From Natrinema salifodinae (lineage in GTDB: Archaea > Halobacteriota > Halobacteria > Halobacteriales > Natrialbaceae), in assembly GCF_900110455.1 (NCBI RefSeq), contig NZ_FOIS01000004.1:434001-498000 (forward strand): DNA of 64,000 bases, given 5' to 3'. Both the position numbers and the translations under genes were made by a program. Below, piece after piece: positions 51,905 through 56,895 of this stretch; position 1 is the first letter of the stretch, and each line of letters opens with the position of its first letter. The notes beneath the pieces are model-generated. The model did not search any database and was not told where the DNA came from. It saw only the letters and a list, made by a program, of their open reading frames with translations.

Positions 51905-52355
51905 GGTTAGTGAGAGGTCGTCCCACGGATCCGTCCGATCTCGAGAAGGATTTATCATCGAAAGGACATATTTCATTGGTGTAGTGTCGCAATTTTTCGA
52001 CAATCGTCACAATATTCGCGAAACGGTCGTCGTCGGTCGAGCCGTGCGGCCAAGCGTTTCACCGCCCGCAAGGAAGTCGATCTCGATTGAACAGGTCGTG
52101 GGTGGGACTCTGATTTCCGGGCAAACGGGCAGTTTTCGACGATACTGGCGTTCGACGATGGGCGCGTTATCTTGAACGGATCGAACACGAAATCGACGCG
52201 CGCGTCGGGAAAGCGGAGACGGACTGTGATCACGGTGGTCCGCCCGATACCGGGTCATACCTCGAGATGACCATACACTTGCAGTAATCGAGTGGCGTTT
52301 TCGTCAATTAGTTGATTAGAAAAGGTTTTTAATATGTAGATTATCCCTAGTTTAC
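51905..52355. other. A/T-richer intergenic region with the promoter of the accessory block
   Basis: Base composition drops here compared with the haem operon, and more strongly toward 52300-52355. A 63-codon frame at 51984-52175 was not accepted. TTTTTAATATG at 52326-52336 is a strong TATA candidate for the gene at 52356. Confidence 0.55.
52326..52336 (+). promoter_or_regulatory. TATA box of the accessory Tat-signal gene
   Basis: TTTTTAATATG is centred 25 bases before the ATG at 52356, which suggests a leaderless transcript for the whole 52.3-55.8 kb pair. Confidence 0.65.
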
Positions 52356-53381
52356 ATGAGTTATAATGACATTCAGACTTCGAGAAGGGATGTCCTGAAG
52401 GGGTTATCAGCCGGTGCATCCGCCCTGTTGGCGGCTTCGGGGGCAGGAACAGTGACCGCCGTAGAGAGTTCGGTTCCGGAGGATTCGCCGATGTTAGGCG
52501 ACTTTCGGGAGGGACTCGAGGGGTGGAAATCGCGAGGGCCACACCGGGAAACGAGGGTCGAAGCAGGTCAGACGAGTGTCATCGAAACCGGTGGACACGG
52601 GTTACAAGTCCCGTTTACCGAACGGAGAAACGCACGGATCTGGAACCAGAGCCGAGTTCGTACGGCCGACTTCGCCGCGAACCGGTATCTGTTCGCCCGT
52701 CTCACGGCAAGTGTTGGGGGGACGAACTCGCCACTCGTATTTTTCGCTCGACTGTACTATCCCGGAGCACAGGGTACCGGTCGCGGCGAAAGCGGTGGAG
52801 ATGGCAACGACGGGACGGAAACGGGCAACAATGGCAATGGAAACAGCAAGAACCGCAACGGGAAGAGCAACGGCAACGACGACGACGGAACGAACGGGCG
52901 AAACGGCAGCGGCAAACCGGTCGTCGAATCGCATCCGATCGTCGTCCCGCAAAACACCGTCCACTCCCTATATTGGGATCTTGAGGAGATTCCGGAGAAG
53001 ATTCGCAGCAACGTCCACCGACTCGAGATCGTCTGGTTCCTAGCCGATCATCCGCCCGCTGAAAGCGGCTCCGGTCGGGGGCGCGGACAGGCCGAATATA
53101 TGGGGACCGTGCTGTTCGATCATATCCGGCTTAGCGACGACAACCGAGAGGTAACGCGGAAAGCGCTCCGAGACAAGCGAAACGACCTCCAGCGCTTCCA
53201 TGGGTCGATCACCGACAACGAGGTTCTGAGATCGACCGACGACATGGAATTAGGCAATTTCGTGTTCACCGACGGAGAAAAGATCATGTACGGAGTCAAG
53301 TACCACGATGAGGCGGGCGACAGAGAGTCGGTAACGTACATTCTTGACGGGGAGCGGTTCGCGCTCGGAGGTGAGAACTGA
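52356..53381 (+). CDS. Tat-exported protein of unknown function, first of a coupled pair
   Basis: A 341-residue protein. A Tat signal is clear: TSRRDVLKGLSAGASALLAAS followed by a small-residue cleavage region near residue 35. The core begins with DFREGLEGWKSRG and continues as beta-rich sequence (LFARLTASVGG, LVFFARLYYPG), with VHRLEIVWFLADH and MGTVLFDHIRLSDDN later; this pattern resembles carbohydrate-binding-type jelly rolls, which I only infer. A Gly/Asn/Lys-rich insert (about residues 145-188) is low complexity. The stop shares one base with the next start (TGATG). Confidence 0.8.
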   Translation: MSYNDIQTSRRDVLKGLSAGASALLAASGAGTVTAVESSVPEDSPMLGDFREGLEGWKSRGPHRETRVEAGQTSVIETGGHGLQVPFTERRNARIWNQSRVRTADFAANRYLFARLTASVGGTNSPLVFFARLYYPGAQGTGRGESGGDGNDGTETGNNGNGNSKNRNGKSNGNDDDGTNGRNGSGKPVVESHPIVVPQNTVHSLYWDLEEIPEKIRSNVHRLEIVWFLADHPPAESGSGRGRGQAEYMGTVLFDHIRLSDDNREVTRKALRDKRNDLQRFHGSITDNEVLRSTDDMELGNFVFTDGEKIMYGVKYHDEAGDRESVTYILDGERFALGGEN

Positions 53382-55774
53382 TGACCGATACTCAGCAGTA
53401 CACTTCTCACAACGGCCCCGAAGGGGACGAGTCAGCCGAGATCATATACGATAACCCGGGTGGCGGGATCGGGATTCAATCTGTCGAATCCCAGTCGGAT
53501 GCGCTTATCATCAAGGACTGTCGGCCGTGGGGGACGGACGCCAACGAACAGGTGTTCGACGACCTGAACGTCGACTACGACGTCATTCCGTCGTCACGAC
53601 TGGCGGAAACGACCCTCGAGGACTACATGGTCGTCGTCCTTCCGTCGACGCAGGATTCGTCCTACTACGATCGACTGGCGGAGGCGAACGACGACATCGA
53701 ACGCTTCGTTGCGGGCGGTGGAACGCTCGTCGCACACGTTACCGACGATGGCTGGCCATGTGCGACACAGTGGAACGAGTCGTTCCTCCCGGACGATGTC
53801 GGGAAGGAGAATACGCTCCGAAACGACCTCTCTATCGAGGCGGAAACGCATCCGCTCGTAGAGTCATTCTCCGACGAGACGCTGGATGGGTGGGGGAGTT
53901 CGACGCACGGCTACCTAACGAACCTCCCGGACGACGCGACGGTCGTCGCGACGATTGGGGGCGACGAGTCTCGTCCGACCTACGCCGACTACGGGTACGA
54001 GTCCGGACGGGTTCTAGTGACGATGCAGACGATGGAGTGGCCGTACACAGGTAGTGTCGGAAGCCGCCCGGAGGATCCGCGAGCGCTACTGCAGACCGAA
54101 CTCGAGATTGCGCTTGACGGGCGACGATCGCAGCGCGTCTCGGCACAATCGACGATTCTGCACTACATCAACGGTGAGAACGAGAACGTCACAGAGGGAG
54201 GCCATCCGCTCCACAGCGCCCAGATGCAAGTATTCCCGCGGTCTGATTCGGTTCAGGTGCCGCTTTCCGAGATTCCGAGGCTTCCCGACGTTTCGGTGCC
54301 CTTCCCCCTCGAGCCAGTGCTCGATAGCTGGCAGAAGGGAGATATGATTATGCAACCGGACACTGACCTGAAGGAAGCGACAAAGTTGAAAGATGGCAAG
54401 AACGCCGACGAGTACGGGGATGCCGCGTTTAAGCCGTATCGGTTCAAAAATCAGGTCAGCATCTCGTTCACGTCGCCCGACGGGGAAGCGATCGACAAAG
54501 AGAGCCTCCGGATTCGGTTCAACGAGGAGGGCACGTCGGACGACACCGTCGAGTACAAGGGTGAATCGGAATCGTATACGGTACTCGTCGGTGACGACAT
54601 CAACAACCTCAGAACGGACGAGTGGTTCGATTCGCTCCGAGAACGCGGGACGCGAGTCGATCGCGACTATTCGATAGACACTGTCGAAGTCGGCAAAACT
54701 GAAGGAGTCCGGGTCAGCACTGTCACTAGTGGATACGCCGGCTTCGCACACGAAATCGTCGACCGAGCAGCCCGCAATCCGATTCACTTTCTGGCGACGA
54801 TTTTCGGCTGGTACGAGGTGGTCGAGGACCTTCCAGGCGTTGACGACCTGCCAGACGTGGGCTGGGACGACCTTCCTGATCCACCGGAGGTCCCGGACAG
54901 TGACGATCTGGGCGATCTGCCGAATACACCGGACTGGGACATCCCCGACGGCCCGGACCTCTCCGACTCACCAAGCTGGGACGACGTCCCGGACCTCCCT
55001 GACTCACCGAGTTGGGACGACGTGCCGGACCTTCCGGACAGACCAGGCTGGGACGATGTCCCAGATCCCGATATTCCAGACTTGACCTTGTCGGTGGAAG
55101 GGGCAAGCGCGTTGACGGCGGACGCCGCCGGTCAATTCGAGCCCGTTTCTGACGGCGGAACCGCCACGATGAGCGCCCAACGGACGGCACCAGCCGAATT
55201 CGGCGTCGATCTGGATAACCTGTCGGCGGACGAAATCATCGATCTCATCGCACCCCATCTGCCCGATATCGTCGAGGAAGTCGTCGATCTCTTGACCGCC
55301 GTTCCGAACATCTACTCGTTCTACGAGCTGACCGTCCTGGCTGACGGACGACGGTTCACTCGTGTCTGGGACACGAGCCGTTTCCCGAGCAATGCGTTGT
55401 ACGTCGACGGGCAGCGCCAGCGGCTGAATGTCGTACCTTATAAACGGAAACAGCTGTTCAGCGCTAGAATGGCCGCCTTCTTCGTCGTTGCGAAGGCGGG
55501 GATCTCGCCGTACAAGGGGATCGACTCGAAGGAGAACTATCTCAACTGGCTCCGGGCGAGACGAGTAATGGACGATCCCGGGAGCGTTCTGGAAGAGTTT
55601 GACGAACTCAACGATGTTGTCCGTAACTATCCCCGGATCTTCGCCGAGTTCGACTTCGATGTGAACGACATCATCGTCGACACCCCACAGTGGATTGTCG
55701 GCTACGACGCAACCGGCGATCGAATCGCCAATCCGGAAGCATACTTAAGTTCGAATATCCCCAGTCCATTCTAG
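53381..55774 (+). CDS. Large protein with amidotransferase-like domain and Asp-Pro-Trp repeats
   Basis: A 797-residue protein coupled to the Tat-signal gene. Residues about 40-250 look like a class I glutamine-amidotransferase-like (ThuA/DUF4350) fold: DALIIKDCRPWGTDANEQVF, YMVVVLPSTQDS, IERFVAGGGTLVAHVTDDGW and YGYESGRVLVTMQTMEWP. A beta-rich region (about 270-470) follows. Residues about 487-570 contain repeats with the pattern SWDDVPDLPD. A C-terminal domain (about 600-797) has alternating helices and no recognised motif. There is no signal peptide, lipobox or membrane helix, although its partner is Tat-exported. Function unknown. Confidence 0.8.
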   Translation: MTDTQQYTSHNGPEGDESAEIIYDNPGGGIGIQSVESQSDALIIKDCRPWGTDANEQVFDDLNVDYDVIPSSRLAETTLEDYMVVVLPSTQDSSYYDRLAEANDDIERFVAGGGTLVAHVTDDGWPCATQWNESFLPDDVGKENTLRNDLSIEAETHPLVESFSDETLDGWGSSTHGYLTNLPDDATVVATIGGDESRPTYADYGYESGRVLVTMQTMEWPYTGSVGSRPEDPRALLQTELEIALDGRRSQRVSAQSTILHYINGENENVTEGGHPLHSAQMQVFPRSDSVQVPLSEIPRLPDVSVPFPLEPVLDSWQKGDMIMQPDTDLKEATKLKDGKNADEYGDAAFKPYRFKNQVSISFTSPDGEAIDKESLRIRFNEEGTSDDTVEYKGESESYTVLVGDDINNLRTDEWFDSLRERGTRVDRDYSIDTVEVGKTEGVRVSTVTSGYAGFAHEIVDRAARNPIHFLATIFGWYEVVEDLPGVDDLPDVGWDDLPDPPEVPDSDDLGDLPNTPDWDIPDGPDLSDSPSWDDVPDLPDSPSWDDVPDLPDRPGWDDVPDPDIPDLTLSVEGASALTADAAGQFEPVSDGGTATMSAQRTAPAEFGVDLDNLSADEIIDLIAPHLPDIVEEVVDLLTAVPNIYSFYELTVLADGRRFTRVWDTSRFPSNALYVDGQRQRLNVVPYKRKQLFSARMAAFFVVAKAGISPYKGIDSKENYLNWLRARRVMDDPGSVLEEFDELNDVVRNYPRIFAEFDFDVNDIIVDTPQWIVGYDATGDRIANPEAYLSSNIPSPF
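54831..55086 (+). repeat. Diverged Asp-Pro-Trp coding repeats
   Basis: About seven units of a (D/S)xxWDD(V/L)PDLPD-type pattern are encoded. Two neighbouring units of 36 bases starting near 54970 and 55006 are nearly the same in protein but differ at several silent positions, so the repeat is maintained at protein level rather than being a recent DNA slippage. Confidence 0.75.
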
Positions 55775-55812: not shown

Positions 55813-56895
55813 ATGACCGAGACTCCCAGCCGACGAGACGGCCATACTCGCCGCATCATCCTTAGCGCACTCGTCGGCGGGACGATCGGTGTGGCAGGAT
55901 GTGTGGGTGGCGACGACGAGATCGACCGGCTGCAACCCGAACGAGAGCTGTGGTCGTTCGAAGCCGACGGGCGAATACCCACGACCCCTGCCGTCGCGAA
56001 CGGCCGGGTCCACGTCGGCAGCCTCGATCGGAACGTTTACGCGCTCGAGACGGAGGACGGAACGGAACGGTGGCGATTCGAAACCGGGAACGAAGTCTGG
56101 TCCGCACCGACGATCGACGGCGACGCCCTGTACGTCGGCGGCGTCGACCAGAGAGTGTACGCGATCGGGCTCGACGGGGACCAGCGGTGGACAGTCGAGA
56201 CGGATAACGAGATCTACGCGCCGCCGACAACCGCGGACGACCGCGTCTACATCGGGAGCAACGATGGTAAGCTGTATGCCCTCTCGAGCGCCGCTGGCGA
56301 GGTCGAGTGGTCGGTCGAAATCGGCGGGAAAGTAAAATCGGAACTGGCGACGATCGAGGACTGGGGGTACGTCGGAAGCACCAACGGCACTCTTTCCGCA
56401 ATCGATCTCCGCGACGGGGCGAGACAGTGGCGTTTCGGAACCGACGAGCGGGTTCTGAGCCGGCCGGCGATCCACGACGACCGCGTCGTGTTCGGTTCGA
56501 CGGACAGGCGATGTTACGCGATCGACCGGCAAAACGGCGACGAACGCTGGCGGTACGAGACAGACGGCGGCATCGCGTCCTCGCCAACGGTTCGCGACGG
56601 AACCGTCTACTTCGGCAACTGGCGGATGCGCGTCCACGCAGTTGACGTCGAAACTGGCGAGCAGCAGTGGCAAACGACGCTTCGCGGCCGGATCAACGGC
56701 TCCCCGACTCTCGCCAACGACGTGCTCTACGTCGGAGACGCCGCTGGCATCGTCCACGCGCTTAATCCCGAGACGGGCGAGGCCCACTGGCGGTTCAAAA
56801 CCGACAACGCCGTCATCGCCGCACCGACTGTCGTCGACGACGTTGCCTACGTCGCGAGCAACGACGGCCGCGTCTACGCGCTCGACGTAACCTGA
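55813..56895 (+). CDS. Lipoprotein PQQ-like beta-propeller
   Basis: A 360-residue protein with an N-terminal signal: twin arginines in HTRRIILSALVGG, then the lipobox VAGC, so it should be lipid-anchored on the outer face of the membrane, possibly after Tat export. The rest is a regular series of seven or eight propeller blades with patterns such as VHVGSLDRNVYALETEDG and VYIGSNDGKLYALSSAAG. Such propellers bind partners or act as assembly scaffolds. It starts 38 bases after the large accessory gene on the same strand and may belong with it. The frame is open upstream, but the ATG at 55813 starts a normal signal. Confidence 0.88.
   Translation: MTETPSRRDGHTRRIILSALVGGTIGVAGCVGGDDEIDRLQPERELWSFEADGRIPTTPAVANGRVHVGSLDRNVYALETEDGTERWRFETGNEVWSAPTIDGDALYVGGVDQRVYAIGLDGDQRWTVETDNEIYAPPTTADDRVYIGSNDGKLYALSSAAGEVEWSVEIGGKVKSELATIEDWGYVGSTNGTLSAIDLRDGARQWRFGTDERVLSRPAIHDDRVVFGSTDRRCYAIDRQNGDERWRYETDGGIASSPTVRDGTVYFGNWRMRVHAVDVETGEQQWQTTLRGRINGSPTLANDVLYVGDAAGIVHALNPETGEAHWRFKTDNAVIAAPTVVDDVAYVASNDGRVYALDVT

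Follow-up and report, generated by a model that had tools for sequence, protein, structure and literature searches.

A conserved gene pair of Halobacteria couples a Tat-signal protein to a signal-less partner and is a probable non-redox Tat hitchhiker

Two overlapping genes in the stretch of Natrinema salifodinae DNA that we analysed (64,000 nucleotides, hereafter the window) form a real, conserved and undescribed two-gene unit. The first encodes P1, a Tat-exported-type protein of 341 amino acids (positions 52356..53381, + strand; open reading frame, NCBIfam match, alignment and AlphaFold2 model of an orthologue), and the second encodes its partner P2, of 797 amino acids (53381..55774, + strand; open reading frame and test of the N-terminus), which carries no export signal. 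A sequence-only reading had placed both genes at exactly these coordinates and suggested that their products might be exported together. Judging from the sequence comparisons below, we consider it likely that P1 and P2 are a non-redox Tat hitchhiker pair, a folded cytoplasmic complex that would be exported on the signal of P1 and reside at the cell surface. Dozens of related genomes show the coupling, and on this ground P1 probably carries folded P2 out.

Two rounds of searching in 391 Halobacteria genomes, the first using P2 and the second a profile of the P2 core, yielded 26 full-length relatives of the core in 24 genomes. A P1 relative lies directly upstream of every one (26/26); no full-length P2 without an adjacent P1 was found among these 26 relatives, and an own export signal is absent from every P2 relative tested. 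The sequence-only reading had called for a search for conserved co-occurrence, and had named P2 relatives that stand alone or bear their own signals as evidence against it; the first was found throughout, and the second was not found among full-length relatives. Intact P1 relatives nearly all have a twin-arginine motif together with a hydrophobic stretch, and in 27 of the 31 junctions examined the two genes overlap by 1 nt (TGATG/TAATG) or 4 nt (ATGA/GTGA). A coupling of these two genes that is repeated across the Halobacteria is not due to chance. The evolutionary distances of P1 and P2 are also correlated (Mantel r = 0.91, n = 16), as is expected for a unit inherited together. Conserved order, overlap, co-occurrence and the missing signal are thus established here, as is an exchange of accessory domains described further on.

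Further pairs were found in G043 (two), G022, Haloarcula amylovorans, Halovivax and Halorussus salinisoli, and at five plasmid loci, on plasmids of Halorussus, Haladaptatus, Haloprofundus and Haloarcula. The distribution is patchy, with representatives in 15 of 86 Halobacteria genera, and the window's genus has one other member with the pair among the genomes searched. The window has a mean GC content of 0.669 (sd 0.027) and the pair one of 0.590; no other 3.4-kb stretch within the 64-kb window is as low, in agreement with the earlier remark that its base composition differs from that of the flanks. Low GC, patchy distribution and plasmid copies, some of them beside transposases, together make it plausible that the P1-P2 block is acquired DNA, as had been proposed. 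A viral origin is unsupported: neither viral contigs nor phages yielded any relative, and a phylum sample gave none outside Halobacteria.

Lone or broken copies do occur. The P1-like gene of G193 is unaccompanied by P2 and also lacks a recognisable Tat signal; in G139 the start of P1 is fused to the end of P2; and G293 retains a P2 fragment alone. These three are decayed. In G209, P1 is present before P2, with its last part out of frame. Frameshifts or in-frame stops were seen in the P1 or P2 genes of L069, L068, L061 and L056/L080 (genomes G209, G265, G151:C61 and G022), and point either to decay of the module in some lineages or to assembly errors.

The N-terminus of P1, MSYNDIQTSRRDVLKGLSAGASALLAASGAG, is a standard Tat signal covering approximately residues 1-36, and the signal TSRRDVLKGLSAGASALLAASGAGTVTA scores 17.3 bits against NCBIfam TIGR01409, for which the cut-off is 16.7. 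At the other end of the gene, the stop codon TGA (53379-53381) shares its A, at 53381, with the ATG of P2, giving the overlap TGATG (53379..53383, + strand). The sequence-only reading was therefore right about both the Tat signal and the junction. A Shine-Dalgarno sequence for P2, GGAGGTGA (53367..53374, + strand), falls in the codons of the conserved terminal Gly-Gly of P1, and a sequence of the GGAGG/GGTGG type occupies this position in most relatives. Upstream, a TATA-like box, TTTTTAATAT (52326..52335, + strand), lies about 25 nt before the P1 start; by comparison with typical haloarchaeal promoters, the P1 transcript is probably leaderless. Tight gene overlap by itself is common in operons, and to that extent counts against reading the pair as a hitchhiker.

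Behind its signal, P1 consists of a CBM22-like sandwich (approximately residues 46-262) and a C-terminal module of a helix and five strands (approximately 264-341). The structural evidence comes from the Halovivax orthologue, whose AlphaFold2 model (pLDDT 77.7) places a beta-sandwich at approximately 45-225 and, at 228-298, a single long helix with five strands, which form the C-terminal module. The modelled sandwich has the fold of a beta-sandwich CBM; it matches CBM22 structures with Z of 14-15 over 147-158 residues (Foldseek E = 1e-6), including 1h6x (Z 14.4, rmsd 3.3, 155 residues) and 2w5f (Z 15.2, rmsd 3.2, 147 residues). P1 thus shares a fold with the CBM22 and CBM11 modules of xylanases and lichenases, but its identity to them is only 12-16%, it has no attached catalytic domain and it bears the extra C-terminal module. 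At the sequence level, 2 of 13 P1 family members, but not the window P1, gave a match (E = 2e-4) to PF21253, a galactose-binding-like domain of a mannanase. We propose that the sandwich may bind a surface or extracellular glycan. It contains a low-complexity loop rich in Gly, Asn and Asp (52773..52913, + strand), which alignment shows to be shorter or missing in relatives. A further likeness of the modelled sandwich is to a viral protein, the Haloferax tailed virus 1 turret protein (8qpg, Z 12.9), and probably reflects no more than a shared carbohydrate-binding fold.

We propose that the C-terminal module of P1 (53145..53378, + strand; orthologue model and comparison with G356) is the dock for the P2 core. 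It is a candidate because it is retained in G356, where the P1 adjoining P2 keeps its Tat signal and this module and the CBM-like middle has been swapped for other repeats. The higher conservation expected of a dock was not found (0.36 for the module vs 0.40 for the sandwich).

An RR motif is absent from residues 1-40 of P2, and the maximum 15-residue hydropathy within residues 1-60 is 0.73; by this simple motif and hydropathy test, which we applied to the N-termini of the family, the window P2 lacks an export signal, as had been reported. Alignment shows that most P2s are about 340 amino acids long and consist of the core. In the window copy the core is divided into a first part, residues 252-480 (54134..54820, + strand; alignment A1), and a second part containing the motif LADGRRFTRVWDTSRFP..LYV, residues ~620-797 (55238..55771, + strand; alignment A1). 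Comparison of family members indicates that the ancestral P2 was about 340 amino acids long and that the window copy gained a ThuA-like domain and an acidic linker. Other members carry LamG-like domains (L057, L058 and probably L115) or a Kelch propeller (L061), so that accessory domains vary and the core is retained. The core itself found no match in Pfam, NCBIfam, PHROGs, PADLOC or PDB sequence searches, and no paper describing the unit was found in the open-access literature; the sequence-only reading likewise knew of no described system of this makeup. Its model is poor (pLDDT 52), and the single outlying structural match, to the functionally uncharacterised protein BAS0735 (3c5p; Z 9.8, rmsd 4.8, 178 residues), is accordingly a lead only.

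The ThuA-like domain spans P2 residues 29-247 (53465..54121, + strand) and is recognised by weak profile matches to PF06283 (E = 1.5e-4) and PF08532 (E = 0.008), the ThuA/class I amidotransferase-like profile scoring 22.5 bits, below the curated cut-off of 33.4. The amidotransferase-like fold noted earlier is therefore real but weak, and it is an add-on of a few members, in this lineage, rather than the family core. The only two Cys of the window P2 lie in this domain and are invariant across its four known members; a C47-C127 disulfide is possible from the sequence. Matches of the ThuA-like profile to LukS in the PDB have E above 0.1 and are at chance level. The linker (residues 486-568; 54836..55084, + strand) is an acidic stretch rich in Pro and Trp with SWDDVPDLPD repeats, missing from aligned relatives. 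Asp-Pro-Trp repeats had been described here, but DPW never occurs; the unit, of about 12 residues, is (S/G)WDDVPDLPDSP, with four W-D-D-[VL]-P-D copies at residues 494-562, and the DNA holds a 36-nt tandem repeat of 3.2 copies. NCBIfam also matched P2 with BAC, an IgA-binding protein (E = 2e-5), over the Pro/Asp repeat; we rejected this match as compositional.

Several observations bear on where P2 works. The same pair of LamG-like domains is found on a Tat-tagged P1 (Haloarcula marina plasmid) and on the signal-less P2 of G043 (blastp E = 2e-12); since it occurs on either partner, P1 and P2 probably work in one compartment. ThuA-like domains also occur with their own Tat signal in two fully read proteins outside the pair (L055 and L060). 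Together with the neighbouring lipoprotein gene described below, these sequence relationships point to a location of P2 outside the cytoplasm. In a comparison trained on a small set of 20 Tat proteins, the window P2, taken whole, ranks by composition above about 96% of cytosolic-type proteins, on the exported side, and most long P2s also fall there; the short P2s, which make up most of the family, are equivocal, cytosol-like and do not stand out.

The composition of the short P2s is what would be expected if P2 stayed in the cytoplasm and the overlap served co-expression only, P2 being for instance a chaperone that helps P1 to fold or attends it before export. Redox enzymes have dedicated Tat chaperones, which lends this explanation some precedent. 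A chaperone role nevertheless sits badly with P2s that bear LamG-like, Kelch or ThuA-like domains, with the LamG-like pair on a Tat-tagged P1, and with accessory domains that vary around a retained core; we judge it unlikely.

The genes downstream of the pair raise a different explanation. A lipoprotein gene is often found 3' of the pair in its long or plasmid forms. In the window this gene (55813..56895, + strand; identified from sequence and from relatives at other pair loci) encodes a PQQ-type beta-propeller with a Tat motif and a lipobox (TRRIILSALVGGTIGVAGC). PQQ-propeller relatives follow P2 in L053 (a P2 remnant), L057, L059 and L061 and lie convergently in L062, L159 and L163, and at loci with a long P2 the propeller is probably a third component of the module. 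The remnant in G033 (L053:7656-9503) is 73 aa of the P2 C-terminus. It lies just before a PQQ-propeller gene that is 51% identical to that of the window, which suggests that P2 and the propeller were already neighbours before P2 was lost in G033. A plasmid-rich clade instead has a different small lipoprotein, a lipobox family of about 170 amino acids with no match in Pfam, present in 1-5 copies after P1-P2 (L114:4810-7250, L066:6019-8249, L074:9331-10838, L149, L158, L160, L161 and L162). Orphan P2 C-terminal pieces (profile positions ~217-334) lie between or after the lipobox copies in L066, L074 and L162.

These arrays resemble toxin/immunity arrays, and P2 might accordingly be a secreted toxin-like antagonist carried by P1, with the small lipoproteins as immunity proteins and the orphan P2 ends as displaced toxin tips, in the manner of polymorphic toxins. 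The likeness is confined to one plasmid clade, however; most pairs, including that of the window, have no member of this lipoprotein family nearby, and the orphan pieces may be no more than tandem duplicates that have decayed. The C-termini of P2 are moreover conserved rather than polymorphic, and no toxin family was matched in Pfam, NCBIfam, PADLOC or PDB, nor any known immunity family. We therefore hold this explanation to be quite improbable. That P2 leaves the cell independently, through some route not recognised here, and joins P1 only afterwards would account for exported-type domains on a protein with no recognised signal, but it leaves the constant company of P1 and the gene overlap unexplained and is very unlikely.

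Export of P2 as a hitchhiker on P1 is supported by the absence both of full-length P2s without an adjacent P1 and of P2s with their own signal; this part of the earlier proposal of joint export is supported, and its reading of the amidotransferase-like fold needs amending, that domain lying outside the core and bearing its own Tat signal where it occurs outside the pair. Three features of a Tat hitchhiker were found together: a Tat signal on P1, no signal on P2 orthologues, and obligate genetic association. We counted against it the composition of the short P2s, the poor model of the P2 core, the unremarkable conservation of the P1 module and the P1 without P2 in G193. From the whole we infer the following course of complex formation, export, docking, glycan binding and anchoring. 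The overlapping genes and the Shine-Dalgarno sequence at the end of P1 would couple synthesis, so that both proteins are made together in one place; P1 and P2 would assemble in the cytoplasm as a folded complex, the C-terminal module of P1 docking the P2 core; and the complex would exit through the Tat translocase on the signal of P1. Outside, the CBM22-like sandwich would bind a surface or extracellular glycan, P2 would supply an exchangeable extracellular domain (ThuA-like in the window), and the Tat lipoprotein encoded next, here the PQQ propeller, may hold the complex at the membrane.

The hitchhikers described in detail so far are redox enzymes, in which cofactors force folding before export. 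The division of labour proposed here is that of E. coli HybO-HybC, PaoABC and the formate dehydrogenases, in which one subunit bears the signal and the folded complex is exported (PMC4273604, PMC10924467), P1 having a Tat signal and P2 none. Unlike these cofactor-bearing enzymes, P1-P2 showed no redox family and no cofactor motif and has almost no Cys, its escort is CBM-like, and export is in this case inferred. Among haloarchaea, the nitrate reductase NarGH has a Tat signal on NarG and none on NarH, and the two proteins are proposed to fold into a dimer before they cross the membrane (PMC8301774); P1-P2 is likewise a haloarchaeal pair with one Tat signal, but NarGH is a redox enzyme pair and no sequence relation to it was seen.

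A second coupled pair was observed in L055:221-3495 and L060:8414-11367, in which a Tat-signal ThuA-like protein overlaps a signal-less partner by 1 or 4 nt. The partner, of about 350 amino acids, has no Pfam family and contains, by eye, an Ig-like stretch; from its sequence arrangement, this pair is another hitchhiker candidate. In L153 (G141:C20), an open frame of about 4700 residues, possibly a giant surface protein, contains a ThuA-like domain of the same type. The L055/L060 pair hints that the design is not unique to P1-P2. More tentatively, haloarchaea may have a general escort-passenger design, free of redox cofactors, in which a Tat-exported glycan-binding escort with a C-terminal dock would carry a signal-less passenger with a swappable outer domain, for surface display or antagonism.

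In haloarchaea, Tat is the route of 39-55% of the exported proteins (PMC2945643). The P1-P2 pair is small and occurs in culturable genera (Natrinema, Haloterrigena, Haloarcula and Halovivax), and its joint export is testable in laboratory haloarchaea. If it is true, piggyback export would be a broader way of placing signal-less proteins on the cell surface, beyond redox enzymes, and signal-based counts of the secretome would miss such signal-less passengers.
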